Shown in pieces: positions 1-21,000 of a stretch of 64,000 nt of DNA; position 1 is the stretch's first letter; each line of letters begins with the position of its first letter. The position numbers and the translations under genes were made by a program. Under the pieces are notes generated by a model that saw only the letters and a list, made by a program, of their open reading frames with translations, did no database searches and was not told where the DNA came from. Source of the stretch: Terriglobia bacterium (GTDB lineage Bacteria; Acidobacteriota; Terriglobia; JAIQFV01); NCBI GenBank assembly GCA_020073085.1, contig JAIQFV010000008.1, forward strand, positions 124,001-188,000, in the 5' to 3' direction.

Positions 1-233
1 ACGAGGCCTGGCTGGCCACGCTCGCCATCATCGTCTGGCACCTCTATATGGTCCTGATGCGACCGGGCTCGTACTCGTCGAGCTGGATGTGGCTGACCGG
101 AAAGATTACCCGCGAAGAAATGATCGAGGAACATCCCCTGGAATGGGAACGGATGGAGCGCGAAGCAAGGTCAGCCGGAAAAGCTGAAAAGGAGGAGGCA
201 CCGGAGATCCCTCAACCTGCCCGTTCGACATGA
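1..233 (+). CDS. cytochrome b subunit, HydC/FdnI-like (C-terminal end only)
   Basis: The reading frame is open from the window edge and ends at TGA 231-233. The visible 76 residues hold the end of the last membrane helix (IIVWHLYMVLMRP) and a cytosolic tail with TREEMIEEHPLEWERME. The complete cytochrome b at 5117 ends in the same way (IIIWHFYNVHFNP, then IEEFREEHPIEYERW), so this is the same family of small four-helix b-type cytochromes that pass quinol electrons to c-type cytochromes. One difference is visible: the two complete paralogues have WHxYxVH, whereas here the second histidine is replaced (WHLYMVL). It probably paired with a cytochrome c gene upstream of the window. The gap to the next gene (234-399) is GC-rich and holds no gene. 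Confidence 0.8.
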   Translation, partial: EAWLATLAIIVWHLYMVLMRPGSYSSSWMWLTGKITREEMIEEHPLEWERMEREARSAGKAEKEEAPEIPQPARST

Positions 234-399
234 CACCGGCAAGTTGCGCATCAAGAAGAACCCGGACCTTATCCCCGGCGCCTCCTTGGATGAGGCAAGT
301 CGCCCGCTAGTCGGGCCGCCCGGGCCGCTGCACCCGCGGGGGAGCGGGAACGCCAGCACGACCTTCTGACCCAGAGCGAGGAGATTTCGAAAAGAAATT

Positions 400-2190
400 A
401 TGCAATCCCGGAAAAGACAACGACAAAGCATGCTGGTGCTGGTGATCTTTCTGCTCGCCGTCTTTCTCGTCGTGTCCTACCGGTTTTACAAGGAAACCGA
501 AATCAAGGTGGCGGCCCAGTCGGGCGTTCAACAATGGTTGATTGCAGAAACGGCCGCGGCCGGGGTGGAAGGATATTTTGACACCATCTACAAGCGCCTG
601 GAAAAGGAATCCACCCTCCTGTCCACCCGGCCTGCGAACCAGCCGATTGCAGAGCATTCGCTCGACGCCCTCTATCTCGACTTGTCCTACCGGATTGCGG
701 GAGTCTACCTGCTGAACGACAAGTTCCAGATTGAAGTCTTCCGCTCCAACGATCCCCAACTACGCAATTTCGTCCCGCAGATTACGGGACCCTTGATGAC
801 CGCCCTGCTGCGGGGAGAACATGTGGTCGGTTCACCGGTCGCCACCAGCAATTACGAATACATCTTCGAGATCCTCGAACCGGTCCTCGACTCAGAAGGA
901 CACTTGAAGATGGCCCTGGGCGCCGCAGTTCCCCTCCGGAACCTGAGCTCTCTCTATCTCGACCCGTTAAACTCCACCAAAACCCACTACGCATGGATGC
1001 TGGATCAGAAAGGGATGCTTCTCTACAACCCTCGGCATCCCGAGATGCTCGGACACCAGATCCTCCAAAACCGCCAGGAGTGCTTCTCCTGCCACCTTAA
1101 TTTCGATACGGAAGAACGGATGGTGCGCGGGGACACCGGGACGGCAACAATCAAATTCAAGAACAAGGACCGGGACCTGGTCGCCTTTACACCGATCCGG
1201 ATGGGTAATCAGCATTGGTCGCTCGCCGTTTCGATCCCTTACACCGAGGCCACGGCACTCACGCGGGACAGTTTTCGCAATACGCTTCTCCTGGTCGCCT
1301 TCTTCTTCTCGATCATCATTGGAGGGGCACTGCTGGTCATGAACATGCATACCCGCAGCATCAAGGCCGAAGAGGAGGCACGGTTCACAAGACGCCAGGC
1401 GCAACTCGAGCGCCAGTTGCTGCAGTCAGAGCAGCTCGCGGGTATCGGCCGTATGACCTCCCAGATTGCCCACCAAATCAAGACGCCCCTCTCCGCCATC
1501 TCCCTGAATATCGAATATCTCGAAAAGGAAGTCCGGAAGCGCCTGCTTTCAAGCGGCGTCCCGGTGGGTGATGCTTCGCTGGAAGATCTCGAGAATGTCA
1601 CCGCTTCGGTCACGACCGAGATTCAGCGTCTCGCTGCATTGATCGAAGATTATTTGAAATTTGCGCGCCTTCCCAAACCGGCCTTTCATCCCGGTTCATT
1701 GACGGAAATGTTGGAAAGCCTGGCAGCGTTTTTGGAGAAGGAAATGGGAGACCGTCATATCCAGTTGAAGATGGACGCCGGGCCTCCCACCAGCACAGAG
1801 ACCCAGGACACTGACAAGATTCTGATGGACGAAAATCTTCTGTGGCAGGCCATAACCAACCTTATCCGCAACTCGGCCGAGGCTATGCCCTCCGGCGGTA
1901 CGATCACACTGAGCGTGAGATTCACCGACAACGACGTCGAATTCAAGATTTCGGACGAAGGGACCGGAATCCCGGAAGACAAGCTGCCTCATATTTTTGA
2001 TCCTTTCTTCACGACCAAGCCTGATGGAACGGGATTGGGACTCTCTTATGTCCAACGGATCATCGCCGAACATCACGCTTTCATCGCCTGTCAGAGCCGT
2101 CTGGGAGTGGGAACATCGTTCACGATCAACTTTCCCCGCTGGACGGACCAAATGCAGGAAGATGGAGTTTATGTTGATACTAAATCGTGA
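400..2190 (+). CDS. membrane sensor histidine kinase with periplasmic c-type heme motif
   Basis: 596 residues. Helix 1 is at about residues 9-26 (LVIFLLAVFLVVSYRF). A periplasmic sensor region of about 270 residues follows, then a second helix near 290-312 (LLLVAFFFSIIIGGALLV). The cytosolic part has a HisKA dimerisation helix with the H-box around H358 (AHQIKTPLS) and a HATPase_c domain with N box NLIRNSAEAM, G1 DEGTGIP, F box FDPFFTTK and G2 GTGLGLSYV. The sensor region contains C228-F-S-C231-H232, a covalent heme c attachment motif, so it probably senses redox state or a heme ligand. Motif and domains are seen; redox sensing is inferred. It lies between cytochrome genes, and the matching response regulator is probably the NtrC-type protein at 8219. 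GCGAGGAG lies upstream of the ATG. Confidence 0.93.
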   Translation: MQSRKRQRQSMLVLVIFLLAVFLVVSYRFYKETEIKVAAQSGVQQWLIAETAAAGVEGYFDTIYKRLEKESTLLSTRPANQPIAEHSLDALYLDLSYRIAGVYLLNDKFQIEVFRSNDPQLRNFVPQITGPLMTALLRGEHVVGSPVATSNYEYIFEILEPVLDSEGHLKMALGAAVPLRNLSSLYLDPLNSTKTHYAWMLDQKGMLLYNPRHPEMLGHQILQNRQECFSCHLNFDTEERMVRGDTGTATIKFKNKDRDLVAFTPIRMGNQHWSLAVSIPYTEATALTRDSFRNTLLLVAFFFSIIIGGALLVMNMHTRSIKAEEEARFTRRQAQLERQLLQSEQLAGIGRMTSQIAHQIKTPLSAISLNIEYLEKEVRKRLLSSGVPVGDASLEDLENVTASVTTEIQRLAALIEDYLKFARLPKPAFHPGSLTEMLESLAAFLEKEMGDRHIQLKMDAGPPTSTETQDTDKILMDENLLWQAITNLIRNSAEAMPSGGTITLSVRFTDNDVEFKISDEGTGIPEDKLPHIFDPFFTTKPDGTGLGLSYVQRIIAEHHAFIACQSRLGVGTSFTINFPRWTDQMQEDGVYVDTKS

Positions 2191-3289
2191 TTTAAATCCA
2201 CCGATTCGGGGAGCCCGCCGGCGTCGAATTCGGGAATGGGCCCCGAGACGATCCTGCACGAGGAGGGTTCTGCGACTTCTTCCCACAGTCCTTCTTCTTG
2301 GGACAGGTTTCTTCATGGCCTTGCCGGGTTTCTCGGCAGTTAATCCTGGATCCACCTCCGTGTCGCCGGATTGTTTGCTCTGTCATGCGAAATCAAAAAG
2401 CCCAGTCATCGAGGAGATGCTCAAGGACTCCGTCCACCAAGGGCTTGCTTGTACTGATTGTCATGCAGACATCCTGAGCGTTCCCCATGCGGAGAAACCT
2501 TCAGCCGTGGATTGTGGTTCCTGTCATGCCGCCGAATCGGCGGGATGGCACCAGAGCCCCCACGCGGTGAGACCGGGGGCGCCTACCTGCGCCGGCTGCC
2601 ATGGCACGCATTCCATTCATGCGATTCGACCCGGGAATAATTCCGTCATCAAGCTGCAAATTGCCCAGCTCTGCGAGAGATGTCACGACCAGCAGTTTGC
2701 GAGCTACAAGACCAGCGTGCATGCCCGGGCTTTGGAAAGAGGAGACGGAGAGGCGGCCACCTGCACCGATTGCCACGGCGGGCATGCCATCCAAGGCCCC
2801 GAATCCGCAGGCTCACCGGTGGCTCCTGCCTCAGTTTCCAGCACCTGCGGCAGCTGCCACGGCGACAAAAAGGCCATGGCAACGTCCGGACTCCCCACGG
2901 ACCGGGTCTCCACCTTCCGAAGCAGTTTTCACGCCGCGGCGCTGGGGATGGGCAACATGAAAGCAGCGACCTGCGCGTCTTGCCACGGCGCCCATGACAT
3001 CCTGGCTTCCGCCGATCCCGCCTCGCGTACCCATCCGGCCAATCTGCCGAAGACATGCAGTCATTGCCACGCCGGTGTGAAACAGGGCTTTGCCGGGGTC
3101 AGAATCCATGTTGACGTCAGCCCGACGGGGGCACGAGCGGCCTGGTTTGTCCGAGTCTTTTACATTCTATTTATTAGCATCCTGGTCCTGGGTTTCATCG
3201 TTCACATCCTCGCCGAGCGCTTGGGGGCATTGAGAAACAAGAAGAGGGCGCTCCGCGATGTCTCTTCTGGAAAGGAAGGTGTTGAATGA
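2171..3289 (+). CDS. nonaheme cytochrome c, membrane anchored
   Basis: About 372 residues. The frame stays open upstream inside the kinase gene. The ATG at 2171 is preferred over 2162 because GGAAGATGGAG lies just in front of it. An N-terminal hydrophobic stretch (LLPTVLLLGTGFFMALPG) serves as signal peptide or anchor. Nine CxxCH motifs follow (CLLCH, CTDCH, CGSCH, CAGCH, CERCH, CTDCH, CGSCH, CASCH, CSHCH), and a C-terminal helix (VFYILFISILVLGFIVHIL) leaves a short basic tail in the cytosol. The hemes therefore face the periplasm. The gene overlaps the next one by 4 bases (ATGA), so both products should be made together. Size and heme count match the c-type half of Geobacter CbcL, here as a separate polypeptide. 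Role as electron acceptor from the adjacent cytochrome b is inferred. Confidence 0.9.
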   Translation: MLILNRDLNPPIRGARRRRIREWAPRRSCTRRVLRLLPTVLLLGTGFFMALPGFSAVNPGSTSVSPDCLLCHAKSKSPVIEEMLKDSVHQGLACTDCHADILSVPHAEKPSAVDCGSCHAAESAGWHQSPHAVRPGAPTCAGCHGTHSIHAIRPGNNSVIKLQIAQLCERCHDQQFASYKTSVHARALERGDGEAATCTDCHGGHAIQGPESAGSPVAPASVSSTCGSCHGDKKAMATSGLPTDRVSTFRSSFHAAALGMGNMKAATCASCHGAHDILASADPASRTHPANLPKTCSHCHAGVKQGFAGVRIHVDVSPTGARAAWFVRVFYILFISILVLGFIVHILAERLGALRNKKRALRDVSSGKEGVE

Positions 3290-4014
3290 AGGCCAGAGAG
3301 GGACTCGAGAAGGATAACCGCGGGTCATTGGGACAACCTGCCGCCACAATCAGCCGCCTCACGTTATGGCAAAGGTGGGAGCACGGCCTGATGGCTCTTT
3401 CTGTCACATTACTCATCCTTTCAGGGCTGGCCCTGGCATACCACGAGCAGGCTTGGGCCCGATTATTGATCCGGCTCATGGGAGGGCTCGAGGGCCGTCA
3501 CTGGGTCCACCGAGCCTCCGCCATAGGGCTCCTGGTTGCAGGCTTGTTGCATTTCTCAGGGCTGATTCTCTCGGAGCGGCATCAACGTGATTTCCATGAG
3601 GTCAAGCCCCGGCTCAACGACTTCCGCGCCGCGTGGGGGGGGCTGAAATTTGCGTTTTCCGGAAGGGGTGAACCGCCTCCGTACGGTTGGTTTACTCCCA
3701 TGCAGAAGCTCCAATACTGGGGGGTGCTAATCGGATGTTTGTTAATGGGAGTCTCGGGAGCACTTTTGTGGAACCCCGTCATCACTTTGAATTCCTTCCC
3801 AAAGTGGGTGCTGGACATCATGCTGGTCCTCCATGCCACGGAGGCGCAGTTCATCTTTGTGCTCTTCATCCTCTGGCATCTCTATGACGTTCACCTGGCC
3901 GGAGGAAATTTCCCGATGAATCCCGCCTGGCTCACAGGAAAAATGTCGGAGGAACTCTTCGTCCGTCAACACCGCGCCTCTATGGAAAATGCTCGCTCCA
4001 AGGAGGAGGCATGA
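3286..4014 (+). CDS. diheme-type cytochrome b, HydC/FdnI-like
   Basis: 242 residues with four predicted helices: TLLILSGLALAYH, AIGLLVAGLLHFSGLI, GVLIGCLLMGVSGALLW, and ATEAQFIFVLFILWHLY. Candidate heme b ligands are the histidines of RWEHGLMAL, YHEQ, WVHRASAIG, LLHFSG and WHLYDVHLAGGNFP. The family (formate dehydrogenase gamma, Ni/Fe hydrogenase cytochrome b, thiosulfate reductase cytochrome b) takes electrons between a periplasmic partner and the quinone pool. ATG overlaps the stop of the nonaheme cytochrome (ATGA), with GGAAAGGAAGG as ribosome binding site. With no hydrogenase or formate dehydrogenase nearby, the partner is most likely the nonaheme cytochrome, giving a two-subunit quinol:cytochrome oxidoreductase (inference). 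Confidence 0.88.
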   Translation: MKAREGLEKDNRGSLGQPAATISRLTLWQRWEHGLMALSVTLLILSGLALAYHEQAWARLLIRLMGGLEGRHWVHRASAIGLLVAGLLHFSGLILSERHQRDFHEVKPRLNDFRAAWGGLKFAFSGRGEPPPYGWFTPMQKLQYWGVLIGCLLMGVSGALLWNPVITLNSFPKWVLDIMLVLHATEAQFIFVLFILWHLYDVHLAGGNFPMNPAWLTGKMSEELFVRQHRASMENARSKEEA

Positions 4015-5120
4015 CCCGCTCGTTCTATAAGCCTCTTGTCCTCGAAGCCGTGTTTGTCGTTCTCGGGATGACTTGGCTTGTGACCCCCTCCCGGGTCCGC
4101 GCTCAGGAAGACATTCGATGCCTCACCTGTCATGGCAAGCCCGGTTTCGAAAAGACCCTGCCCTCGGGCAAGAGGCTCGAGTTATTTGTAGATCCCATGC
4201 GTCTGCGTCTCTCCGTTCACAAAGACCGAAAGTGCGTCGACTGCCATGCCGATGTTACCGAGGTCCCGCACCCCGAGATTCCTCAGAAAGTGAATTGTGG
4301 ACGATGTCATTTCCTGGGCAACTCCGTAGGAGCCCCCCAGCTCGAAAGATACCTCGAGTACGGGACGAGCGTTCACGGGAAAGCCCTGGCCGAAGGGAAT
4401 CCCAAGGCCCCTGTTTGTCAGGACTGCCATGGTGACCATTTCATTCTCCCCGGCTCCGACCCACGTTCTCAAGTAAACCACAAAAGCATTCCTCAGACTT
4501 GCGGGGGATGTCATCTGGAAATATACGCCCAGTACCAGGAATCCGTGCATGGACAGGCCCTGATGAAGGGGGCCAAAGATGCCCCTGTATGTACCAACTG
4601 TCATGGAGAGCACAACATCCTGAAACCCCAGGACAAGACCTCCACCGTCAACCCGGGAACGGTGGTGAACACATGCTCCAAATGCCATGCCAAAGTCGTC
4701 ATCATGGAGAAATACGGCGTCAAGGCGGAGCAGGTGGCGACCTACCGCGAATCTTTCCACGGGATTGCCAACGAATTCGGGATGCTCAAGGCGGCCAATT
4801 GCGCCTCCTGCCACACGGCTCACCAGATTTATCCCGAGCAAGACCCCCGCTCAACGGTCAATTCAAAAAACATCCCGCTCACCTGCGGAAAATGTCACCC
4901 CGGGGCGAATGCCAACTTTGCCAAGGGACGAATCCATCTCAACCCCAAGGACAAATCGGCAGGAATCGTCTACTGGGTGGCCCTGGGCTTCAAGATCTTG
5001 ACTCTCTCGACGCTCGCCGGTCTCCTGATCCACATTGCCCTCGACCTCTATCGTCGGTTCAAGAACCGGGGGCAGGCGGGTGAACAGAAGGAAGTTGAAG
5101 TCGCGGAGAAGTCGCAATGA
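4011..5120 (+). CDS. nonaheme cytochrome c, membrane anchored (second copy)
   Basis: 369 residues. A signal peptide covers about residues 1-31 (LVLEAVFVVLGMTWLVTPSRVRA). Nine CxxCH sites follow (CLTCH, CVDCH, CGRCH, CQDCH, CGGCH, CTNCH, CSKCH, CASCH, CGKCH), then a C-terminal helix (VALGFKILTLSTLAGLLIHIAL) and a charged tail. The order and spacing of hemes, the HGxAL-like segments after each cluster and the closing GRIHL/RIHV segment before the anchor all parallel the protein at 2171, so the two are paralogues. Translation is coupled on both sides: GGAGGAGG then ATGA at the start, ATGA at the stop. It should be the periplasmic electron acceptor of the cytochrome b at 5117. Partner assignment is inferred from gene order. 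Confidence 0.92.
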   Translation: MTRSFYKPLVLEAVFVVLGMTWLVTPSRVRAQEDIRCLTCHGKPGFEKTLPSGKRLELFVDPMRLRLSVHKDRKCVDCHADVTEVPHPEIPQKVNCGRCHFLGNSVGAPQLERYLEYGTSVHGKALAEGNPKAPVCQDCHGDHFILPGSDPRSQVNHKSIPQTCGGCHLEIYAQYQESVHGQALMKGAKDAPVCTNCHGEHNILKPQDKTSTVNPGTVVNTCSKCHAKVVIMEKYGVKAEQVATYRESFHGIANEFGMLKAANCASCHTAHQIYPEQDPRSTVNSKNIPLTCGKCHPGANANFAKGRIHLNPKDKSAGIVYWVALGFKILTLSTLAGLLIHIALDLYRRFKNRGQAGEQKEVEVAEKSQ

Positions 5121-6166
5121 GTGAAGAGAAGAGAGTCCCCCTTGAAGACAGCCTCTGGGCCCGTCAAGACACGGCCGAGACGGCCGCCCGTTTGTCCCGA
5201 AGCATTTCTGATTCAGTGACGAAGGAATTACCGAAAGGCCTCACGGAACCGCAGTTCAAGCGCCTGAAAAAGGAACTTCTGGCCTCCCTCGAAAAGGAAA
5301 TGATCCTTGAAAGCCGGAGGGTCATCCGCCTCTTCCTGGAAGAGGAAGAGGCACAACAAAAGCATTTGGAGAAGAGGCGGAAGCGAAAGGCCCTCTTCGA
5401 AGAGTCCGTGGAGCGGATCAGTTTGAATCAGCGTGGCCAGCACATGATCTTACTCACCTGTACCCTGCTGCTGATCATCACCGGGCTGCCCATCAAGTTT
5501 CACGAGGCGCCCGCCGCTGAATTCATCATTCACCTCCTGGGCGGACCGAACATCACCCGTGTCCTGCATCGAATCGGCGCGATTGGGCTCACCATCGTTG
5601 GGCTCTATCATCTCTGGTACTGCATGGCCTTTGAAGAAGGGCGCCGGAATTTCGGGCTGTTGCTGCCGTCTCCGCGGGACCTCAAGGATTTTCTCCAACA
5701 GATGGGGTATTACCTCGGTCTCAAGAAAGACCGGCCGTTGTTTGATCGATTCTCGTACATCGAGAAATTTGACTATTGGGCGGTTTACTGGGGGATGGTG
5801 GTGATGATCACCTCGGGTTACATCCTGTGGTTCATGGAGACGGCCATCAACCAGTTCGGCAAGGTCGCCTATGACATTGCCCGGGAGGCCCATTCCGATG
5901 AAGGGTTACTGGCCACCCTCGCGATTATCATCTGGCATTTTTACAACGTCCATTTCAACCCCAAGAAATTTCCGGGAAGTCTGACGTGGTGGCATGGACG
6001 AATTCCGATTGAGGAATTCCGCGAAGAGCATCCGATCGAGTACGAGCGGTGGCTTGAAGCACAGAAACAAGAGGAGACTGAAATGGAGCAGGGATCCGAA
6101 GGGATTCCGGGTAGTCGATCGGTATCGGGCGGAAAAGAGAAGCCAGAGGGAGGAAGCTCCTCATGA
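5117..6166 (+). CDS. diheme-type cytochrome b with long charged N-terminal extension
   Basis: 349 residues. Residues 1 to about 95 form a charged, helical, probably coiled-coil cytosolic extension (for example KRLKKELLASLEKEM and FLEEEEAQQKHLEKRRKRK) that the paralogue at 3286 lacks. Four helices of the HydC/FdnI-like fold follow, with candidate ligands in RGQHMILL, IKFHEAP, VLHRIGAIG, LYHLWY and WHFYNVHFNPKKFP. The C-terminal tail EEFREEHPIEYERW is shared with the truncated protein at the window start. It overlaps the nonaheme gene before it and the large cytochrome after it by ATGA. Likely the membrane quinol-oxidising subunit of the second cytochrome b/c module. The extension might dock a cytosolic partner; nothing in the sequence identifies one. 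Confidence 0.9.
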   Translation: MSEEKRVPLEDSLWARQDTAETAARLSRSISDSVTKELPKGLTEPQFKRLKKELLASLEKEMILESRRVIRLFLEEEEAQQKHLEKRRKRKALFEESVERISLNQRGQHMILLTCTLLLIITGLPIKFHEAPAAEFIIHLLGGPNITRVLHRIGAIGLTIVGLYHLWYCMAFEEGRRNFGLLLPSPRDLKDFLQQMGYYLGLKKDRPLFDRFSYIEKFDYWAVYWGMVVMITSGYILWFMETAINQFGKVAYDIAREAHSDEGLLATLAIIIWHFYNVHFNPKKFPGSLTWWHGRIPIEEFREEHPIEYERWLEAQKQEETEMEQGSEGIPGSRSVSGGKEKPEGGSSS

Positions 6167-8202
6167 CCCGCCGGAACCTCCGCCTGTTCGCCTTGCTGGG
6201 CCTCACGGCAATCGTTGTCCTTTCGGGCTGGTTCTTTGTGGATGTGACCGCCCGCCGCTCTTCCTTTTGCAGCAACTGCCACTACATGCAGCCTTATGTG
6301 GATCAATGGAGAAGCTCGACGCACAAGAATGTCGCCTGTGTGCAATGTCATCCCACCACACGCCGCGCCATGTTTGGTCAATTCATCAAAAACGTGACGA
6401 GGACTTACAATCCACGGCCTCGGGCCTACGTGCCCGATGAAGCCTGCGCCTCCTCAGGCTGCCACGCCGGGATGCCCAAGAGCACAGCGGTCAAGTTCCT
6501 GACGGTCACCTTCCCCCACCAACCTCATTTGGGGGTCGACCGCCGAGGGATCAGACTGCATTGTGCCTCCTGCCACGGGGCCTCCAACGAGGCCGGCCAT
6601 GTCTCGGTGGACAAACGCATCTGTTACCTCTGCCATTTCAAAGGACAGCCGGTGGAGGGAACTTTAACGTGGTGCGGGTCGTGTCACGGCGCCCCGACAG
6701 GGATGAGCCAGCATGCCGGGTTTATCTTTGACATGAAGGCATACGCCGCTTCCGGGGTGCAGTGCAGCCGATGCCATGTCGCGGTGCATGAGGGCCTGGG
6801 CGAAGTGTCTAGGGACAAGTGTTTCAGTTGCCACGTTTCACGGGTTGAAGCCATCTCGAACCCCAAAGCACTCCACGACAACCATGTCGGTGATCAACAG
6901 ATCCGGTGCATGGAGTGCCATGAGCCGATCCGCCATGGGAACATCAAAATTCTTTCAGTTCTTGATGTCTCCTGCGAATCCTGCCATCCAAACCTTCATG
7001 CCGGGCCGAAGGAGACCTATCTGGGTGTCGGCGCAAGAGAGGTCCCCGCCACCCCCAGTCGGATGTTTGCGGCTCAGATCAAATGCACGGGCTGCCACAC
7101 TCAAGTGATCGTCCGAGGGGGGGTGTCATTCCTCAGTCAGGGGAACAAAACCGCGAACCCAAAGGCTTGCGCTGCCTGTCATGACGCCCGGTTCATTCCC
7201 ATGGTGGAACGGTGGAAATCTCAAGGTAAAGTCTTAATGACGGAAGCTCGCCGCCTTTCGAATGAAGGGAGAATCCTCGCGGCTCGGGCCCCGTCCAACC
7301 CCGACGTCCAAAAGACCTCCTCCGACCTGGATTTCAACGCGAATTTTTTGGAGCAGGGTCATCCTGTTCATAACATCGAATACGGAATCCGAATTGTTCA
7401 AACGAACTCGGAACTCCTCAAGAAGCTGACTGAAAGCGTTAAAGTGCCGTCCACGGCTGCCAGTGTACAGCCCGCTTTTGCCAGAGGTCCGTTCACCTAC
7501 TGTAACGAATCGTGCCACACCTTCATTCCCAGAAAGGAACCCTATAATTTCAAGGGAGTCGATTTCCCCCACACGTATCACGTGCAGAAGGCTGCCCTCC
7601 CTTGCGATACCTGTCACAAGGAGAATCATCATAAGGAGTTGAGTCTGACGGGCCCCCCCGACTGTGCTTCGTGCCATCATGCCAGCGCCAAAGTCGACTG
7701 TGCGCGTTGTCATGCATCACAAGCGGCATTCTTCGGCGGAAAACTTCCACCTCATCTGAACGTGACGGCCAAGCCGGATGCCATGTCGGGGATCGTCGGC
7801 TGCGTCGACTGTCATGACCCCACTAAACCGGACCCACTGAAGGAGGTCTCCAAGGCTTGCGAGGCCTGTCATGAAGGAAAAGGCGCAAAGGATCTCGAAA
7901 GCTGGCGCCGGCAGTTGCAGGAGGAAGTAGGGAAAGTGCGTCTCCTCTCTGAAGAAAACAGCATGCTGTTGAACGGGTTCGAACGCCGGGGGGTCGGAGT
8001 TGCCTTATACCGAACCAGGCTGGAAGCGGCACGTGCACGCCTGGATTACCTCGAGAAGGCAAAGGGTGTCCATAACATGGTCGCGGCCAGAGCCATCCTG
8101 GAGAGAATCAAGCAGGAACTCACCGCACTGCTTTCTGAAGCCAACCGGATCGCCGCCCCAGCCCCGGCAAAGAAGAAGGAAAACCAATCCAAGAACGACT
8201 GA
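6163..8202 (+). CDS. large NapC-like multiheme cytochrome c, up to 18 hemes
   Basis: 679 residues. A single N-terminal helix (LFALLGLTAIVVLSGWFFVDV) is followed at once by CSNCHYMQP, which is the NapC/NirT/NrfH arrangement for a quinol-facing first heme. Sixteen standard CxxCH motifs can be counted, plus CASSGCH (CX4CH, about residue 96) and CNESCH (CX3CH, about residue 447), giving up to 18 sites. The last 115 residues have no heme motif and are helical (SWRRQLQEEVGKVRLL and later LEAARARLDYLEKAKG). A similar heme-free helical tail ends the nonaheme protein at 22564. The gene starts inside the stop of the cytochrome b gene (ATGA) with GGAGGAAG in front. Probably a periplasmic electron conduit or reductase; the substrate cannot be told from sequence. 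Confidence 0.88.
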   Translation: MTRRNLRLFALLGLTAIVVLSGWFFVDVTARRSSFCSNCHYMQPYVDQWRSSTHKNVACVQCHPTTRRAMFGQFIKNVTRTYNPRPRAYVPDEACASSGCHAGMPKSTAVKFLTVTFPHQPHLGVDRRGIRLHCASCHGASNEAGHVSVDKRICYLCHFKGQPVEGTLTWCGSCHGAPTGMSQHAGFIFDMKAYAASGVQCSRCHVAVHEGLGEVSRDKCFSCHVSRVEAISNPKALHDNHVGDQQIRCMECHEPIRHGNIKILSVLDVSCESCHPNLHAGPKETYLGVGAREVPATPSRMFAAQIKCTGCHTQVIVRGGVSFLSQGNKTANPKACAACHDARFIPMVERWKSQGKVLMTEARRLSNEGRILAARAPSNPDVQKTSSDLDFNANFLEQGHPVHNIEYGIRIVQTNSELLKKLTESVKVPSTAASVQPAFARGPFTYCNESCHTFIPRKEPYNFKGVDFPHTYHVQKAALPCDTCHKENHHKELSLTGPPDCASCHHASAKVDCARCHASQAAFFGGKLPPHLNVTAKPDAMSGIVGCVDCHDPTKPDPLKEVSKACEACHEGKGAKDLESWRRQLQEEVGKVRLLSEENSMLLNGFERRGVGVALYRTRLEAARARLDYLEKAKGVHNMVAARAILERIKQELTALLSEANRIAAPAPAKKKENQSKND

Positions 8203-8218: not shown

Positions 8219-9646
8219 ATGTTGAAGCCCAATCGTGAAACCACCATACTGATCATTGACGATGAAAAACCGATCCGCGAATCCCTCCATCGCACCCTTC
8301 GCCAGGAGGAATACCAGGTGAGGCTGGCCGAAAATGGCGACCAGGGACTGCGTTTTCTTGAAGCCGAACGGATTGATCTGGCGGTCGTCGACATGGTCCT
8401 TCCTGACTGGAACGGGGTCGATCTGCTGAAAAAGATTAAGAGCGAGTGGCCCGAAGTTGAAGTCGTCCTGGTGACGGCTTACGGCACGATTGAGACAGCC
8501 GTCGAGGCGATGAAATACGGGGCCTATGACTTTTTGACGAAACCCTTCAAACAGGCCCAGATTCTGAACGCCATCAAGAAGGCCCTGGAAAAGTTTGAAC
8601 TCGAAAAAGAAAACCGTCTGCTCAAGGAACAATTAAGCGAGCAGACGATCAATCGTAAGCTGGTCGGCAGCTCCCCTGAAATGATGCGGCTGAAGAAGAT
8701 GATCCAGCAGGTCGCCCCCAGTTCCGCCACCGTCTTTATTCAGGGGGAAAGCGGGACCGGCAAGGAGATCGTGGCGGAAACGATTCATTACTTGAGCGCG
8801 CGCGCTGACCGCCCGGTGGTCAAGGTGAATTGTGCCGCCCTGCCGGAGACGTTGCTGGAGGCGGAATTGTTTGGATACGAGAAAGGCGCCTTCACGGGAG
8901 CCTTTGCCCGCAAGGAAGGCCGCTTCGACCTCGCTCGGGGCGGGACGCTCTTCCTGGATGAAATCGGCGACATGCCCCTGGCCACACAAGTCAAACTCCT
9001 GCGGGTGTTGCAGGACGGCACTTACGAACGGCTCGGGGGGACGGAAACTCTCGATGCCGATGTCCGCATTATCGCTGCAACCCACCACGATCTCGAGCAA
9101 GACGTCAAGGCAAAGCGCTTTCGGGAGGATCTTTATTACCGCATCAACGTCATTGCGTTGAAGATTCCCCCGCTCCGTGAACGCACGGACGAGATCCCGA
9201 TCCTGGCGAACCATTTCCTGAAAATCTACTCGACGAAGAACGGGAAAAAGGTCACCGGCTTCACGGAATCAGCCATCAACGCCCTGACCGGCTACGAGTG
9301 GCCAGGAAATGTGAGGCAGCTCGAAAACGTGGTGGAACGGGCTGTCGTTTTGACGGAAACCGAGGTGATCACTCCGGCGGTTCTTCCCCGGGAGATTTCC
9401 GGGGTCAAATCTCAAATTGAGTTGGAATCCAACCGAGCCCCGGTGTTGACCATTTCCTTTCCCATTGGGACTTCGATGGACGACATCGAAAACCGCGTCA
9501 TCCATTCCATCCTCGAGTACACCCAAGGCAACAAACAACGGGCCGCCCAACTGCTCAACCTGGCAAGCAAGACCATTCACCGGCGTCTTGTCGCTGAAAA
9601 CTCCACGGAGGGGGCGGAGGCAGATGCGGCCGAAGACTCTCCCTGA
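8219..9646 (+). CDS. NtrC-family sigma-54 activator (response regulator)
   Basis: 475 residues from ATG 8219. Receiver domain at residues 8-125 with acidic pocket D14/D15, phospho-acceptor D58 (VVDMVLPDWNG), T in VTAYG and K in TKPF. AAA+ domain at about 145-385 with Walker A GESGTGKE, the sigma-54 contact loop GAFTGA, Walker B GGTLFLDEIGD and the R-finger region. The C-terminal Fis-type helix-turn-helix is within GNKQRAAQLLNLASKTIHRR. It activates transcription only from -24/-12 promoters with sigma-54. It ends the cytochrome operon that contains the heme-bearing histidine kinase, so the two probably form one two-component system. Candidate targets in this window are the sigma-54-like promoters at 15341 and 19060. 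The frame stays open upstream into the cytochrome gene, but similarity to the family begins here. Confidence 0.95.
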   Translation: MLKPNRETTILIIDDEKPIRESLHRTLRQEEYQVRLAENGDQGLRFLEAERIDLAVVDMVLPDWNGVDLLKKIKSEWPEVEVVLVTAYGTIETAVEAMKYGAYDFLTKPFKQAQILNAIKKALEKFELEKENRLLKEQLSEQTINRKLVGSSPEMMRLKKMIQQVAPSSATVFIQGESGTGKEIVAETIHYLSARADRPVVKVNCAALPETLLEAELFGYEKGAFTGAFARKEGRFDLARGGTLFLDEIGDMPLATQVKLLRVLQDGTYERLGGTETLDADVRIIAATHHDLEQDVKAKRFREDLYYRINVIALKIPPLRERTDEIPILANHFLKIYSTKNGKKVTGFTESAINALTGYEWPGNVRQLENVVERAVVLTETEVITPAVLPREISGVKSQIELESNRAPVLTISFPIGTSMDDIENRVIHSILEYTQGNKQRAAQLLNLASKTIHRRLVAENSTEGAEADAAEDSP

Positions 9647-9770: not shown

Positions 9771-11108
9771 CTATTCAACGACGTCCTTTAGACCCGAGGT
9801 CCAGTCCTGTACTGTCTTGCTCGGCAACCGGAACACCGTGCGGGAGCTTCGAATCCACACCGAATCCTTTTCGGACTTGCTGAACCGGATCTCGGATTGA
9901 TGATTGGACCGATCCACCAGGGTCACGCGCACCGCGGGTTTGAAAAACAGGCCGACCTTCTCCAGGCTCGCAGGGGGATCCAGAATCTCGTCCGCCTTCA
10001 TCTCCTCCAGTGGTAACCAGAATTTCCAATCTCGCGCTTGCTTTCCAGCCAGAGTCTTCGGAAGGACTACCTTCCATTTGGAATCCTTTGTATCCTCCCT
10101 GTCAAATTCATAGACGCTGTTTTCCAACTGGATCAGGACATGTTGAAGGTCGGCCGCCTTTGTGGTGATGATCTGCTTGTCACGGAGCTTAAACACGACA
10201 GGCCGGATCTTATCGGCGACAATGGTAGTGATCTTAAAGATTGCAGAAGACCCCTCAAGCCTGGCATACACCTGGTCATCTTTTCTTGCGCCCAGCAAGA
10301 GTTTCTTTTGCTTCGCCTGGCTTCCCTCCCTTTCCGTAAGGGTCAAAGTCCCCGCCGGAGGATCCAACTCGAAACTCTTCAGAGTGGATTCAGGCTTGTC
10401 TACAAATTCAGAGGCTTCACTGCTTGAAGCATCATTGAGGTAAGAAGAAATTCCGCTCGGATCACCCCGTGCGGACACAGGTTGGATCAGGTTCCATTCC
10501 GTCCCTGACTTCCGTGCGCTGAAGTGTTCCCCGTTGGAGACAAAATCTATCTGGGTGACCTTCTCGGGATCCACCTCCATGATCCTGCGATCACGAAGTT
10601 GCATCAACGACTTGTCCAATGAGGAGAAAAGGTAGGAAGAAACGAGGACCACATCAGCCCGGGACGAGGTTCGCGCGTAGACATTGTTCTCCGAGAAATC
10701 CTTCTCGCCCAGATCCACTGAGAACGAAGTCCCCGGCCGGGTTTTGAATTCGGTGTGGATCTTTGGTGGCTGAAGACCATACTCAGAGAGGTTCTGCGCG
10801 CCGGCCACGGAGTGGGTGCTCGTGGCGGAGGAGAGGTTGCGAACAATCTCATTGACGACCGTCTGATCGGCCGGGGCTGAGACGGGCGACTCAATCACCC
10901 ATCGGCTATTCTGTTGTTCAAGAATCGTTTTTTCACTGCCGCGTTGGATCAGCAGTGAAGCGACGGCCTCGTCTTTGACATCAAAGAGCTTCTCTGCCTT
11001 TTGCCTGGCCTGCTCGCGATTTGCTTCTCCCCGGAACTCATAAAAATATACAAATCCACCGAGCCCGGCGAGGATCACGACTCCAATGATCAGATTGCGC
11101 CATTTCAT
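9771..11108 (-). CDS. DUF4340-like protein of Gld-type ABC cluster
   Basis: 445 residues from the ATG at 11108, chosen because GGGAAGGA precedes it and a membrane helix starts right after (LIIGVVILAGLGGFVYFY). The remainder is extracytoplasmic, rich in beta-strand-like segments, with internal duplication: phrases of the type LLIQRGSEKTILEQQNSRW, IDFVSNGEHFSARKSGTEW and VLIQLENSVYEFDREDTKD recur. This is the pattern of DUF4340 proteins, which are found at the end of GldA/GldF/GldG-type ABC operons. The molecular role is unknown; an accessory or scaffold part of the exporter is the usual guess. It is separated from the gldG-like gene by a 286-bp spacer filled with heptad repeats, which is unusual for this otherwise tight operon. 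Confidence 0.8.
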   Translation of the reverse strand: MKWRNLIIGVVILAGLGGFVYFYEFRGEANREQARQKAEKLFDVKDEAVASLLIQRGSEKTILEQQNSRWVIESPVSAPADQTVVNEIVRNLSSATSTHSVAGAQNLSEYGLQPPKIHTEFKTRPGTSFSVDLGEKDFSENNVYARTSSRADVVLVSSYLFSSLDKSLMQLRDRRIMEVDPEKVTQIDFVSNGEHFSARKSGTEWNLIQPVSARGDPSGISSYLNDASSSEASEFVDKPESTLKSFELDPPAGTLTLTEREGSQAKQKKLLLGARKDDQVYARLEGSSAIFKITTIVADKIRPVVFKLRDKQIITTKAADLQHVLIQLENSVYEFDREDTKDSKWKVVLPKTLAGKQARDWKFWLPLEEMKADEILDPPASLEKVGLFFKPAVRVTLVDRSNHQSEIRFSKSEKDSVWIRSSRTVFRLPSKTVQDWTSGLKDVVE

Positions 11109-11149
11109 CAATGCAGTCCTTCCCTTTAAGATAACCTGGAAAGAGGGAT

Positions 11150-11394
11150 TAGGTGATAGGTGATTGGGAATAGGCAACACGGGATGGTGATAGGAAGCAA
11201 GGGCAAAGCAAACCAGATGGTAGCGGGAGTGGGGTTTTCAGATTCCCCGCGCCGAACCGCGGGCAGGATCAACATTGGAAACATTCTCATCCTGCCGACT
11301 GCCACGATCCTGTGATTCCTCGCACCTCCCTGACACCTAACGCCCGTCACCTATTCCCTATCCCCTATTCCCTATCACCTAATACCTATCCCCG
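11150..11394. repeat. inverted pair of TAGGTGA-type heptad repeats
   Basis: The left arm (11150-11177) reads as in-phase 7-mers TAGGTGA, TAGGTGA, TTGGGAA, TAGGCAA. The right arm (about 11331-11394), read on the minus strand, gives TAGGTAT, TAGGTGA, TAGGGAA, TAGGGGA, TAGGGAA, TAGGTGA, CGGGCGT, TAGGTGT. The arms face each other and can pair over about 23 bases with three mismatches, leaving roughly 150 bases between them. The right arm ends at the stop codon of the gldG-like gene, so the element lies within the operon spacer. A second element of the same design is at 20760-20982. Confidence 0.75.
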
Positions 11395-12948
11395 TCACTT
11401 CCTCCGTCGTGCCCAGACCATGGCGCCCGTCAGAAGCGCCGAGGCGGGCAGCACAATAATGATGAACCAGAACAACAACTGGCCGGTTGAAGCGGAGAGT
11501 TCCACACGGCGGTTGTCGGCATTCCTTGGCCGGATCGACACGAGGTCCTCATCCTCGGCCAGCCAGCTGACCGAATTCAGGAAAAGATCCCCATTGCGCT
11601 GAAGCCGAAAAAACTCATTCGAGGCAAATCGCGAATTCCCGATGACCTCGACTCGCGCCTCCTTGGTCCGCGTCGATTGCTCTTTCGATCCAGCGGCCGA
11701 CCGGGTGGAGACGACGGCCAGGGAGAGCGGCCCTTCGAGGTCCTTGCCCTTATCGAATTTCAGAGGCCTCTCATTGAGGTTGCTTTCACCCCAACTGTTC
11801 GTCGAAGTTTTGAACAATGGGGCGGATGAGAAATCCGATTTTGTATCGGCCACGCGAACGGAGCGAGCCAGCGGGAAGATGGTCATGGTTCTTCCAAAGT
11901 CCTTCACGATGGGTTGATTCTCATACTCGGTCACAATGGGCGCCGCCGGTCCCATCCCGAGGAGCTGTCCAATCCCACTGGCGTCCACGACGGCATCATT
12001 ATCGACCTGGATCTTCCATTTTTCGAACTCGCGGGTCAGCCCGGGATCGGTGTCCGGATCCACGAGCACCAGAACCTTCCCTCCCGCCTCGACATACTGA
12101 TTGATCTCATCCGCTTCGGGTTGAAACAGCGAGTATTTCGGACCGGCAATGACAAGCACGGTACAATCCGGGGGAACGGATTTGGATTGGGTCAAGTTTA
12201 TCGGTTTCACTTCATAACCCTGATCTTCAAGGCCTTTCTTTGCCCCCGAAAACCCGGGCCCGCCGGCTGAAGTGATTGACGCCTCCCCATGGCCTTCGGT
12301 GAAATAGATGGTGCGCTTTTTGCGGTGCGTCAACTTGACGATGGCATTCGTCAAGTCTTCCTCCGCCGGATTGGTGACCAGCTGTTTCTGGTCGGGGTTA
12401 TTGCCTGACAGGACAACGATCGTCGGCAGGGAGCGCACGCTGTATTGGCGGGCTTGCGCCAGGTATTTTTCAGCGTCCAAAAACTCGTACTTGATCCGGG
12501 ATGACTGCGCCTGGTATTCACGGATCAGGTCTCGAACCGGATGCGATTCGGTCTGATCGAAATAAATCAATCGCACGTCGCTGTCGAGATTCTTTAGCAC
12601 CTTAATCGTCTGTTCGGAGATGCTGAAGAGCTTGTTCGTGGTGAGGTCGTACCGTTTATGATGCCGGGAGCCCAGAAAATTAATGAGGCCGAGGATGGTC
12701 AGAAAAACCGCCACGGTGGCCAGCGTATTGGCCCCGTACTGAGTGGATCGGTGTTGCCAGCCGGCCAGTAGTTCCCGGTAATGGAAAACCAGATGAAATA
12801 TCAAAAGCGCCCCGCCGACACCGGACGTCGTCCACACGGTCCAGTCGAAGACGGAATGAGCGGAATAGAGAACCGCCCCCAGGGCCAGGATCAGCAGGCC
12901 GAGCCCTCCGGCCGGCTTGCTCAGACGCTTCACAAGGGGATCAGCCAT
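11395..12948 (-). CDS. GldG-like ABC transport auxiliary protein
   Basis: 517 residues. Two helices come first (GLGLLILALGAVLYSAHSVF; GALLIFHLVFHYRELL), a third helix follows at about 72-92 (TLATVAVFLTILGLINFLG), then a large extracytoplasmic domain and a closing helix (LLFWFIIIVLPASALLTGA) with a basic end. The domain has the GldG/IFT52-like features DLTTNKLFSISEQTIKVLKNLDSDVRLIYF near its start (residues about 104-133) and ILVLVDPD-like and VLVIAGP segments later. In Bacteroidetes GldG works with GldA and GldF in gliding; in other phyla the same trio is common without gliding. Its start lies 3 bases after the permease stop. Predicted accessory subunit of the ABC-2 exporter. Confidence 0.85.
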   Translation of the reverse strand: MADPLVKRLSKPAGGLGLLILALGAVLYSAHSVFDWTVWTTSGVGGALLIFHLVFHYRELLAGWQHRSTQYGANTLATVAVFLTILGLINFLGSRHHKRYDLTTNKLFSISEQTIKVLKNLDSDVRLIYFDQTESHPVRDLIREYQAQSSRIKYEFLDAEKYLAQARQYSVRSLPTIVVLSGNNPDQKQLVTNPAEEDLTNAIVKLTHRKKRTIYFTEGHGEASITSAGGPGFSGAKKGLEDQGYEVKPINLTQSKSVPPDCTVLVIAGPKYSLFQPEADEINQYVEAGGKVLVLVDPDTDPGLTREFEKWKIQVDNDAVVDASGIGQLLGMGPAAPIVTEYENQPIVKDFGRTMTIFPLARSVRVADTKSDFSSAPLFKTSTNSWGESNLNERPLKFDKGKDLEGPLSLAVVSTRSAAGSKEQSTRTKEARVEVIGNSRFASNEFFRLQRNGDLFLNSVSWLAEDEDLVSIRPRNADNRRVELSASTGQLLFWFIIIVLPASALLTGAMVWARRRK

Positions 12949-12951
12949 GCG

Positions 12952-13740
12952 CTATTGCCTCCATCTCATCGATTCGAACGATCGCAGGGTTAACAGCAAT
13001 GCGAATGCCGTGAAACTCAAATAGAAAATGATGTGGGTGGTGTCAATCACCCCTTTCGAAAAATCATCAAAATGATTCAGGACTGAAAGATAGCTCAGCA
13101 CGTCCCCCAACTTGGAATCGCCGGAATGGGTGGCAAAGTCCAACACCCAGAGGATCAGAAACACTCCGAAGGTACTGACCGACGCAATTATCTGGTTCTC
13201 GGTCAGGGTCGAAATGAATGCCCCCAGGGCGATCAGGGAGCCTCCCAGCAGCAGGACGCCCAGGTATCCACTGAAAACAGGAGCCCAAGGGAACCGGGGC
13301 TGGCTGTAGGCCTGCATCAGCAGAAAGTAAAGCAGGGTCGGCGCGAGCATTGACATGAAAAAAGCCACGGAAGCCAGAAATTTTCCGAGCACAATTTGGA
13401 CGCTCGTCAAGGGGGACGTCAGTAACAATTCGATGGTCCCCTGTTTCTTCTCCTCCGTAAACAAACCCATGGTGGTCATAGGGAGCATGAACAAGAGGAT
13501 CGTGGAGAGGGTTTCAAAGAAATTCCGGGTCACCACCGACGGTACGTCAATGGGCGGCATCCCTCCACCAAATTGCTGGGATTGCATCGCCGCCATCATG
13601 GAATTCTGAACGATCAACCTGAGGATATTGTAGAAAAAGAACCCCATCACCAACAGAAAGATGGTGCTGACGACATAGGCAATCGGGGACACAAAATAGT
13701 TCGAATACTCCCGCTCTAAAATTGCCCAGATGTTCTTCAT
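12952..13740 (-). CDS. ABC-2 type permease, GldF-like
   Basis: 262 residues from ATG 13740; the upstream codons to 13773 lack family similarity and a site GAAGAGGAGCAC lies just before this ATG. Six hydrophobic segments are visible, including YVVSTIFLLVMGFFFY, LSTILLFMLPMTTMGLF, FLASVAFFMSMLAPTLLYFL, VLLLGGSLIALGAFIS and ASVSTFGVFLILWVLDFA. The cytosolic loop EEKKQGTIELLLTSPLTSVQIVLGK (positions about 101-125) is the conserved coupling segment of ABC-2 permeases such as GldF and NosY. It should form the membrane channel of the exporter with the ATPase encoded upstream. Substrate unknown. Confidence 0.88.
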   Translation of the reverse strand: MKNIWAILEREYSNYFVSPIAYVVSTIFLLVMGFFFYNILRLIVQNSMMAAMQSQQFGGGMPPIDVPSVVTRNFFETLSTILLFMLPMTTMGLFTEEKKQGTIELLLTSPLTSVQIVLGKFLASVAFFMSMLAPTLLYFLLMQAYSQPRFPWAPVFSGYLGVLLLGGSLIALGAFISTLTENQIIASVSTFGVFLILWVLDFATHSGDSKLGDVLSYLSVLNHFDDFSKGVIDTTHIIFYLSFTAFALLLTLRSFESMRWRQ

Positions 13741-13817
13741 GTGCTCCTCTTCCCTCCCTTTCCGGCACCGCAATTTCCCAATGCTCTGTTACCGGGCTGT
13801 GACCCCGGTCCCGCCTG

Positions 13818-14849
13818 TCATGACTCCGGCGCATCCGCCTCGCCGGTCTCGGCATCTGGCGCAGGCGGAGCCTCCGAGGCCGCATCCATTTCCTGCTCGG
13901 AGGTGGTGAGTTGCAGGAAGATATCTTCCAGACTCATTGACACCGGACGCAACGACCATAACTCCGCGCCACTCTCCAGCACCGCCCGGGCCACTGCGTT
14001 TCTTACGGAGCGATCTGTCGAAACCTCCAGCGTTAATTCGTGCGCTCCACCCCCGTTCAACGGCTTCGAGGCCATCTCGAGGACTCCGGGAAGGGATAGA
14101 ATACGACTTTTGACCGCATCGAGCTGCCCCTTGATCTCCACAATCAGGCGGTCCCCTCCCCGCAGCTGGAGCGTCAGATTCTCCGGGGTGTCCTCGGCAA
14201 CGATCTTTCCCTTGTTAATGATGACGACCCGGTGGCAGGTCATGGAGACTTCGGGGAGAATGTGAGTGGAGAGGATGACCGTATGGGTTCCGGCCAGGCT
14301 CTTGATCAACTCGCGCACTTCAATAATCTGTTTGGGATCCAACCCCACGGTCGGTTCATCCAGGATGAGAATCCTGGGATCATGAATCAAGGCCTGCGCC
14401 AGTCCCACGCGTTGACGGTACCCCTTGGAGAGGTGCTTGATCAGCCGGTGGCGATAATCCCCGCCATCCTGCGGAGCGTCCACCAGACGGCATTTCGCGA
14501 GAATCTCTTCCACTCTGCGGGGACGGTCGGCCGCAGAGATTCCTTTTATTTTTGCCACAAAGTGAAGGTAACCTTCCACCGTCATTTCACCATAAAGGGG
14601 AGGGTTCTCGGGGAGATACCCGATGAGACGGCGCGTGTCAAGCGATTGCGTGAGAATGTCGAGTCCTTCAATTCGCGCTGTCCCGGCCGTGGGAGGAATG
14701 TAGCCCGTCAAGATCCTCATGGTCGTGGTCTTCCCTGCCGCATTGGGACCGAGAAACCCCAGGATCTCCCCGTCCTTCACATCAAAGGAAATATCGATCA
14801 CAGCGTCTTTTGTGCCGTAACGTTTGGAGATATGATCCACTTCAATCAC
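13818..14849 (-). CDS. ABC transporter ATP-binding protein, GldA-like
   Basis: 343 residues. Walker A is GPNAAGKTTT, Q-loop region GYLPENPPLYGEMTV, signature LSKGYRQRVGLAQ, Walker B ILILDEPTVGLD and H-loop ILSTHILPEV. The first 230 residues are a standard ABC domain. The C-terminal 110 residues are a DrrA/GldA-like extension ending in an acidic, Ala-rich tail (SEAPPAPDAETGEADAPES). It is the first gene of the minus-strand operon ATPase-permease-GldG-DUF4340. It powers export by the ABC-2 permease at 12952. The divergent 552-bp region upstream separates it from the second respiratory locus. Confidence 0.93.
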   Translation of the reverse strand: MIEVDHISKRYGTKDAVIDISFDVKDGEILGFLGPNAAGKTTTMRILTGYIPPTAGTARIEGLDILTQSLDTRRLIGYLPENPPLYGEMTVEGYLHFVAKIKGISAADRPRRVEEILAKCRLVDAPQDGGDYRHRLIKHLSKGYRQRVGLAQALIHDPRILILDEPTVGLDPKQIIEVRELIKSLAGTHTVILSTHILPEVSMTCHRVVIINKGKIVAEDTPENLTLQLRGGDRLIVEIKGQLDAVKSRILSLPGVLEMASKPLNGGGAHELTLEVSTDRSVRNAVARAVLESGAELWSLRPVSMSLEDIFLQLTTSEQEMDAASEAPPAPDAETGEADAPES

Positions 14850-15803: not shown

Positions 15804-15887
15804 GCCCCGGGATCGTTTTATTCCTCTGTACTGGGGATTCGTGGAAGCAACCGGATGCCCAGAGGTCAAAATAGAAAGGACAAACCC

Positions 15888-16619
15888 ATGGTTGCAATCT
15901 TCGTAGTCCTGACCATCATCGCCTTCCTTTTAGTCGATTACGTTGTGCAGAGGGTCCAGGCACGACGAGCAAGTTCAGGCACGCCATCCCCCAAGGCCTT
16001 GGCCCCGGAGGTGAATCCGGGTGAAGCCTTTGTGCGCCTGGGGGATTCAATTGCCGTGCCCGCCGCCTTTTTCTTTCACCGCGGACATACCTGGATCAGG
16101 TTCTCCTCTCCTAACCGTGCCCGGGTCGGGCTGGACGATTTCGCCCAGAGGGTTCTGGGTCGCATTGAGGCCATCCAATTCCCCCGGATCGGGGAACTGA
16201 TTCGCCAGGGCGATCCCATCTTCATGGTTCGCGTGGGTGATCGCAAGCTTTTCCTTCCTGCCCCGAGCGATGGCATTGTGACCCATATCAACACCGATTT
16301 GGCCGCGACACCCGGTGCGGTTCATGTCAGTCCGTTTGAAAGCGGTTGGGTCTGCGAAATGAAGCCTGAGAACGTCTCGCAGAACGTTTCCGAGCTGCTG
16401 TCGGGAGAGGACGCCGTGCAGTGGGAATTGCACGAGCTGAACCGCTTACAGAAATTCATCGCCGACCGGAAGGATGGAAACCCGGTCGCCACTACGGAAG
16501 AGTTCTCCTTGGGTCGTCCCTGGGCTGCGGAGTGCGCGCCGAAGGTCTTGAACGAATTCTCGAAGTCGTTTTTTACTCTCGATCTTGAACACAGCGAGCT
16601 TGTGACGGAGGTTTCTTAA
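15888..16619 (+). CDS. membrane-anchored GcvH-like protein lacking the lipoyl lysine
   Basis: 243 residues from ATG 15888 (AAAGGA seven bases upstream). Helix at about 2-21 (AIFVVLTIIAFLLVDYVVQ), linker, then a GcvH fold at about 60-165. HRGHTWIRF matches the HEWIR entry of true GcvH, and VGLDDFAQRVLGRIEAIQFP matches [20 protein letters not shown] of the gcvH product at 38457. The lipoylation segment differs: VGDRKLFLPAPSDGIV replaces ESVKAVSEIYCPVAGEV, and the modified lysine aligns with Arg or a gap. It therefore cannot be a normal glycine cleavage carrier. The C-terminal 75 residues have no known match. The gene ends 1 base before the ferredoxin gene, so it probably belongs to that redox complex. 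Role unknown. Confidence 0.8.
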   Translation: MVAIFVVLTIIAFLLVDYVVQRVQARRASSGTPSPKALAPEVNPGEAFVRLGDSIAVPAAFFFHRGHTWIRFSSPNRARVGLDDFAQRVLGRIEAIQFPRIGELIRQGDPIFMVRVGDRKLFLPAPSDGIVTHINTDLAATPGAVHVSPFESGWVCEMKPENVSQNVSELLSGEDAVQWELHELNRLQKFIADRKDGNPVATTEEFSLGRPWAAECAPKVLNEFSKSFFTLDLEHSELVTEVS

Positions 16620-16620
16620 C

Positions 16621-17373
16621 ATGTCAAAAGGACTCCTCATCGATATCACAAAATGCATTGGCTGCCGTTCGTGCGAGGCGGCATGCAAGGCACAGAATAA
16701 ACTCCCCGAAAACAATGATTCTGATTTGACAGCCACCACCTATACCAAGGTGATGGAGCGCGGGGATCATTTTGTTCGCAAGATGTGCATGCACTGCCAG
16801 AACCCGACCTGCGTTTCGGTTTGTCCGGTGGGGGCCCTGCAAAAAACGAGCTACGGGCCGGTGGTCTACGACGAATCCAAGTGCATGGGCTGCCGCTACT
16901 GCATGGCGGCTTGCCCGTTCCAGGTTCCGCGCTACGAATGGTCGAGCGCGTTTCCCCGCGTGCGGAAATGCATCATGTGCAAGGACCGGGTCGCCCAGGG
17001 TCTGCAAACCGCTTGCGCCGAAGCTTGTCCTGTGGGGGCCACAACGTTCGGTGAGCGGGATGACCTCATCCACGAGGCCCAGGACCGGATTCGCCAGGAG
17101 CCGGGAAAGTACGTCAACCAGGTTTACGGTTTCTCGGAAGTGGGGGGAACCGGCGTTTTGTTCATCACTGACGTTCCCTTCGAAAAGCTCGGGTTCCGGA
17201 CCGACTTGTTGAAGGAGCCCTATCCGATGCTGACCTGGAACGTCCTCTCAAAAATCCCCAATTTGGTGGGGGTGGGTGCGACGCTGCTCTTTGGAATTTG
17301 GTGGATTACCAGCCGCCGGGAAGAAGTGAAAAAAGAAGAGGCGGAAGCGAAGGCCCAGAACGATAAAATCTAG
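16621..17373 (+). CDS. 4x[4Fe-4S] ferredoxin subunit with C-terminal anchor (HybA/DmsB-like)
   Basis: 250 residues. Four cysteine clusters total 16 Cys: CIGCRSCEAAC, CMHCQNPTCVSVCP, CMGCRYCMAACP and CIMCKDRVAQGLQTACAEACP, the pattern of DmsB/HybA/PsrB electron-transfer subunits. The C-terminus has a helix (IPNLVGVGATLLFGIWWIT) followed by a charged tail, as in HybA. No Tat signal is seen at the N-terminus (MSKGLLIDITKCIGC), so the clusters could sit on the cytosolic side. The next gene encodes the NrfD/HybB membrane partner. Together they would move electrons between the quinone pool and Fe-S clusters. No molybdopterin or hydrogenase catalytic subunit is present nearby. Confidence 0.9.
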   Translation: MSKGLLIDITKCIGCRSCEAACKAQNKLPENNDSDLTATTYTKVMERGDHFVRKMCMHCQNPTCVSVCPVGALQKTSYGPVVYDESKCMGCRYCMAACPFQVPRYEWSSAFPRVRKCIMCKDRVAQGLQTACAEACPVGATTFGERDDLIHEAQDRIRQEPGKYVNQVYGFSEVGGTGVLFITDVPFEKLGFRTDLLKEPYPMLTWNVLSKIPNLVGVGATLLFGIWWITSRREEVKKEEAEAKAQNDKI

Positions 17374-20757: not shown

Positions 20758-20759
20758 AC

Positions 20760-20982: not shown

Positions 20983-21000
20983 GAACCACGGAGGCGTTTC

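Follow-up and report, generated by a model that had tools for sequence, protein, structure and literature searches.

What kind of enzyme does a row of alternating multihaem cytochrome c and diheme cytochrome b genes encode, and how did it come to be repeated? The exit of electrons from the quinone pool is the step that sets the energy yield of extracellular respiration, and Geobacter has several unlike enzymes for it, which are used at different potentials. Here, we describe such a row in a Terriglobia bacterium (Acidobacteriota) from soil. The window, that is the whole stretch of DNA analysed, is 64,000 nucleotides long and corresponds to G000:C8:124001-188000 of a 5.8-Mb draft genome. An earlier note, made from the sequence alone, had read the row as c/b pairs that were duplicated and then diverged. 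We consider it likely that the genes at 2171-8202, together with a fused gene to their left, encode a CbcL/CbcBA-like menaquinol:cytochrome c oxidoreductase of the inner membrane, made up of separate chains and with a core of c9, b3 and an 18-haem cytochrome c; in the same reading, b2 (often with an 11-haem c) and the fused CbcL-type protein would be neighbours of that core.

The gene row and its fused neighbour

The gene order of 2171-8202, all on the + strand, is c9 / b / c9 / b / 18-haem c. The first nonahaem cytochrome c, c2 (2171..3289), carries a C-terminal transmembrane (TM) helix and is an optional member of a class that we term cU. It is followed by b2 (3286..4014), an FdnI/HydC-like cytochrome b without an N-terminal extension, and then by the three genes of the invariant core: c3 (4011..5120), again nonahaem with a C-terminal TM helix, b3 (5117..6166), FdnI/HydC-like with an N-terminal extension, and the 18-haem cytochrome c (6163..8202). 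The coordinates of the two ATGA-coupled c/b pairs given by the earlier note all check out, with nine CX2CH motifs each in c2 and c3, which are homologous chains of 35% identity. ATGA overlaps are found at 3286, 4011, 5117 and 6163, i.e. at all four junctions from c2 through the 6163 gene, and because the overlap also occurs at 6163, the multihaem gene 6163-8202 belongs to the same chain of genes.

Profile searches agree with the assigned domains. The searches with the two b proteins hit PF01292 (b561/Ni-hydrogenase cytochrome b; E-values of 1e-12 and 2e-10) and the formate dehydrogenase gamma model TIGR01583, and those with the c proteins hit cytochrome c7/c3 models. Against the HydC/FdnI profile (Ni_hydr_CYTB), b2 scores 48.6, b3 41.0 and the fused protein 60.4 bits, all above the curated cut-off of 30.1.

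The segment 1..233 (+) had been taken for the tail of a third, separate cytochrome b. It does encode a b domain, but as the 3' end of a fused 711-aa frame (G000:C8:122098-124233) that holds eleven CX2CH motifs and one TM helix ahead of that domain. An N-terminal multihaem c and a C-terminal FdnI/HydC b on one chain are what defines the CbcL/MtoC/MtrH family, whose members have 3-23 CX2CH motifs (PMC6295460). Fused and split forms of CbcL-type modules adjoin in this genome. The proposed CbcL-like composition on separate chains is supported. Its nearest known counterpart in layout, the fused form, lies directly upstream, and the split c chains keep a C-terminal TM helix matching that of the fused protein but end there, without a b domain. 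One histidine of this helix is conserved in 31/31 fused proteins, 52/68 c3 and 14/39 cU.

We made an AlphaFold (AF2) model of L061, a 90% identical orthologue of the fused protein (37 sequences, pLDDT 81). Its b domain has the FdnI fold (Z 16.9 over 213 residues) and is linked by one TM helix to the multihaem c domain, which resembles MtrA/HAO-type cytochromes with Z 8.5-9. The model has five TM helices plus one signal-like helix, as against the six-TM criterion of the family, for which four- and five-TM members are also on record (PMC6295460). In a search of a plasmid collection, the fused protein gave only four weak matches (23-26% identity over about a third of the query) and b3 gave none.

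Several known systems share parts of this arrangement. CbcL of Geobacter sulfurreducens has the layout of the fused gene, with an N-terminal multihaem c, a TM helix and a C-terminal HydC/FdnI diheme b (PMC9129911, PMC6295460), but it binds nine haems rather than eleven and is a single chain, whereas here the same modules are also present as individual chains that have an 18-haem partner. The split genes, being separate frames with ATGA overlaps, fall outside the one-chain definition of CbcL/MtoC/MtrH; the family counts in the literature refer to single-chain proteins, of which fused homologues are known in many phyla (PMC6295460). A split b with a multihaem c is not new by itself. CbcBA/Cbc5 of Geobacter (cbcABCDE) combines a separate PF01292 cytochrome b with a membrane-bound multihaem c in a cluster with an 11-haem c (PMC7726332, PMC10989804), but the published gene descriptions list for it a single cytochrome b and a 7-haem c, and neither another b nor a 9-haem or 18-haem gene. 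In the Mco system of ANME archaea, a cytochrome b gene likewise adjoins a separate c of 7-11 haems, but the b is VhtC-like and the archaeal system has one b and one c only (PMC9012536). In the part of the literature covered, we found no paper describing the fixed row in which two b classes stand together with c9 and the 18-haem protein, and the gene row is apparently previously undescribed.

The cassette is flanked by regulatory genes. A sensor histidine kinase (400..2190, +) separates the fused gene from c2 in the source genus and lies 5' of b2 in the sister genus; it has a Cache-like periplasmic sensor with the haem c motif CFSCH (residues 228-232; C228-H232), and its orthologues in G001 and G002 also have one CX2CH motif. 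An NtrC-type response regulator with a GAFTGA loop (8219..9646, +) follows the cassette in the source genus. Possibly, the kinase senses redox state for the cassette and acts with this regulator. A sigma54 promoter for the regulator was sought as exact TGGCAC-N5-TTGC without a hit, and one-mismatch sites were not above chance.

Age of the modules and cytochrome b classes

To place the modules, we scanned genome contigs for b3 orthologues, which gave 136 relatives, kept 80 loci and classed the genes by position. Trees with SH-aLRT support were built separately for b (76 domains) and c (69 domains); an earlier, wider b tree had misplaced a few long branches. Each position forms one group in the b tree (b3 100, b2 96, fused 99) and in the c tree (c3 100, cU 87, fused c 95), and every one of these groups spans many phyla. 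Because they do so, the modules must have separated long before the source genome arose, and by these trees the fused, c2/b2 and c3/b3 copies are ancient. The duplication and divergence of the earlier note, taken as events in this lineage, are not supported; there are instead three orthologue groups common to phyla, and we reject recent local duplication on the position-specific groups of both trees.

The b classes differ in fixed marks. Five histidine columns are invariant in 76/76 b domains, and four of them fall at FdnI haem-ligand positions when aligned to 1kqf_C; here and below, we take the FdnI haem-ligand and quinone-site assignments as given. These b domains share the fold and the four ligand positions of FdnI, the formate dehydrogenase-N gamma subunit, but FdnI is partnered by an Fe-S/molybdopterin enzyme, whereas their partner is a multihaem c and they have one extra invariant histidine in TM2. 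At one position beside the FdnI quinone loop, the residue is constant within a class but differs between classes, being E in the fused proteins, Q in b2 and D in b3. A class residue so near the expected quinone site is compatible with redox tuning, short of demonstrating it. Two features that had been seen as signs of recent divergence turn out to mark whole classes. The N-terminal extension at 5117 occurs in 67/67 b3, with a length of 50-92 aa, and b2 is generally without it (median 0); on FdnI topology the extension would be cytoplasmic. The altered WHxYxVH at 1-233 is likewise a property of the fused class, whose 18/18 tested members lack the histidine, while 27/27 b2 and 31/31 b3 have it.

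These observations bear on the proposal of two independent split CbcL-like enzymes, c2·b2 and c3·b3, that would stand alongside a fused one, all recent local duplicates tuned to different potentials. The shared domain composition and the homology of c2 and c3 would fit it, and E/Q/D or the presence and absence of the VH histidine could reflect such tuning. We nevertheless think it unlikely, given orthologue groups that are older than their spread over phyla and the fact that c2·b2 is not obligate: b2 lacks an adjacent separate c in 23/49 loci, some of which have it directly behind a fused gene and a few of which place it close to or at the end of a contig, and also in the sister genus G002, where c2 is absent and b2 (65% identical) directly follows the kinase. 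E/Q/D and the b3 extension offer residue-level targets for what distinguishes the modules.

The conserved unit and its spread

The order c9–b3–18-haem c is found in 67/80 b3 loci, all metagenome-assembled; most of the remaining loci are truncated at a contig end or represent variants (e.g. with 28-haem proteins, Armatimonadota-labelled). b2 is present in 49/67 core loci, usually ahead of the core. The arrangement is not accidental: the same order is found in 3/3 genomes of the family, one of them without c2, and in many phyla. The c-b pair does not hold as the repeated unit, as c2 is optional and c9-b3-18-haem c is constant; from these comparisons, the triplet rather than the pair is the conserved unit. 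NTGA overlaps recur across loci, at b2/c3 in 28/49 and at b3/18-haem in 39/67. The loci carry 16 NCBI phylum labels, with 15 loci unlabelled, and labels of metagenome-assembled genomes may be wrong.

As a check independent of neighbourhood, 396 Acidobacteriota genomes were searched separately for b3 and for the 18-haem family. b3 was found in 16 genomes, the 18-haem family in 40 and both in 15, so that the family is present in 15/16 b3 genomes versus 25/380 others (Fisher p about 1e-15). The cassette is patchy, occurring in about 4% of the sampled Acidobacteriota species, and any b relative occurs in 194/396. Gene-to-gene distance correlations are mixed (0.17-0.68) and confounded by descent.

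Haem motifs were counted with CX3CH and CX4CH included. c3 has nine motifs in 64/67 loci, and the cU class at the c2 position usually has 11, compared with nine in c2 here. The last c gene (6163-8202) has 16 CX2CH, one CX4CH and one CX3CH, i.e. 18 motifs, all ending CH; across loci this gene has eighteen haems in 44/67 and fifteen in 13/67.

Variants of the row were also observed. A 28-haem protein stands in place of the 18-haem gene in L101:11138-13081, L140:10783-12687, L105:4096-5967 and L102:8434, labelled Armatimonadota or Bacillota, and the 18-haem profile barely recognises it. In L088, L096, L115 and L123 (Zixibacteria/FCB/Calditrichota labels), the order is c11-c8/9-b3-13-15-haem c-fused, without b2, and a 6-haem protein, NrfH-like in L088, comes first.

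Electron path, outlet and direction

The oxidoreductase reading rests on gene order, cross-phylum orthology, conserved haem ligands, the FdnI fold of the b domain and the TM anchor of the c chains. Quinol oxidation and the electron path are inferred, and the outward direction is assumed. Quinol would be oxidised at the FdnI-like site of b, and electrons would pass over its two haems b to the membrane-anchored c9, from there to the NrfH-anchored 18-haem protein and on to an outer-membrane decahaem/porin conduit encoded 8 kb upstream. If FdnI working in reverse is a fair analogy, quinol oxidation on the cytoplasmic side would cost membrane potential. The probable role of the cassette is to move electrons out of the respiratory quinone pool towards the cell exterior.

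A bolder version, which we put forward tentatively as possible but doubtful, is that a single stable complex unites c9, both split cytochromes b (b2 and b3) and the 18-haem protein; it would have two unlike quinone sites of the diheme b type and one of the NrfH type. This would be a separate class of respiratory enzyme, common to many uncultured phyla, that links the inner membrane straight through the periplasm with the outer-membrane conduit. A conserved cassette with three distinct b classes and an 18-haem partner would mark extracellular respiration in uncultured phyla of soil, groundwater and the subsurface.

The 18-haem protein begins with an NrfH/NapC-like TM helix and a first haem CSNCHYM, and thus has the N-terminal TM helix and CX2CHxM first haem of NrfH/NapC, but it continues for ~600 further residues with 16 more haem motifs. 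It scores 24.2 bits against PF03264, just at the threshold of 24.1, and falls below the cut-off of the NrfH family TIGR03153 (37.5 versus 134.2 bits, N-terminal part only). Compared with solved structures, portions of its model (about 160-170 columns) resemble NrfA/octahaem nitrite reductases with probability 1.00, and c9 gave weak partial matches only. The NrfH-like N-terminus and these portions would suit a cassette that serves a periplasmic reductase of nitrite, sulfite or the like, with the 18-haem protein itself catalytic. We regard this as very unlikely: the whole-chain match is insignificant (best E 0.015, TM 0.16), all 18 motifs end CH and the conserved row has no dedicated reductase gene.

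For the outlet expected under the outward reading, the upstream region offers candidates. A decahaem c of the DmsE/MtrA family (G000:C8:110502-111599; TIGR03508 261.8 versus a cut-off of 192.2) comes first; behind it lie a 675-aa frame that matches GSU2204 weakly, two genes for 5-haem c proteins and c-biogenesis genes of the ResB/CcsA kind. The decahaem/barrel pair lies about 8 kb upstream of the cassette, with the c-biogenesis genes between. G001 has this pair upstream as well, and in G002 the barrel gene alone was found. In L088 and L096 (Zixibacteria/FCB), a decahaem and a GSU2204-family gene run into the cassette in the same row on the same strand, with GSU2204 over its cut-off in both and the decahaem scoring 339 with GSU2203 versus a cut-off of 325, tested in L088. 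This linkage, seen in few lineages, supports a role in extracellular electron transfer, short of proof. The upstream barrel-like gene matches the GSU2204 family only, and weakly; the MtrB/PioB porin family PF11854 has no match in the source genome, and a porin similarity search in the other loci found none.

The opposite direction has also been weighed: the cassette could act as a quinone reductase in the manner of MtoC/MtrH, with extracellular Fe(II) or a partner as the electron donor. Members of the CbcL/MtoC/MtrH family are found among Fe(III) reducers as well as Fe(II) oxidisers, and no sequence feature tells the direction (PMC6295460). The source genome has no Mto-type porin (PF11854), and we consider uptake rather improbable.

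Among other observations at the conduit genes, the GSU2204-family genes L088:3600-5771 and L096:3060-5252 contain an internal stop beyond which the same frame continues; the stop may encode selenocysteine, and the model is named as a (seleno)protein. At L004:1783-5179, which lies downstream of the decahaem/barrel pair, a C_GCAxxG_C_C protein with two CX2CH motifs is flanked on either side by a 5-haem cytochrome, and these two cytochromes share 68% identity.

Two further gene sets lie in the window. Minus-strand genes at 9771-14849 resemble a GldG-type/DUF4340 ABC exporter set, including an ATPase and a permease, and are unrelated to the cassette. A second redox cluster (15855-23841) encodes a GcvH-like protein, a 4Fe-4S ferredoxin (16621-17373), NrfD (17400-18677), a NapC-like 5-haem c (19039-20757) and a 9-haem c (22543-23841), and is probably another quinone oxidoreductase.
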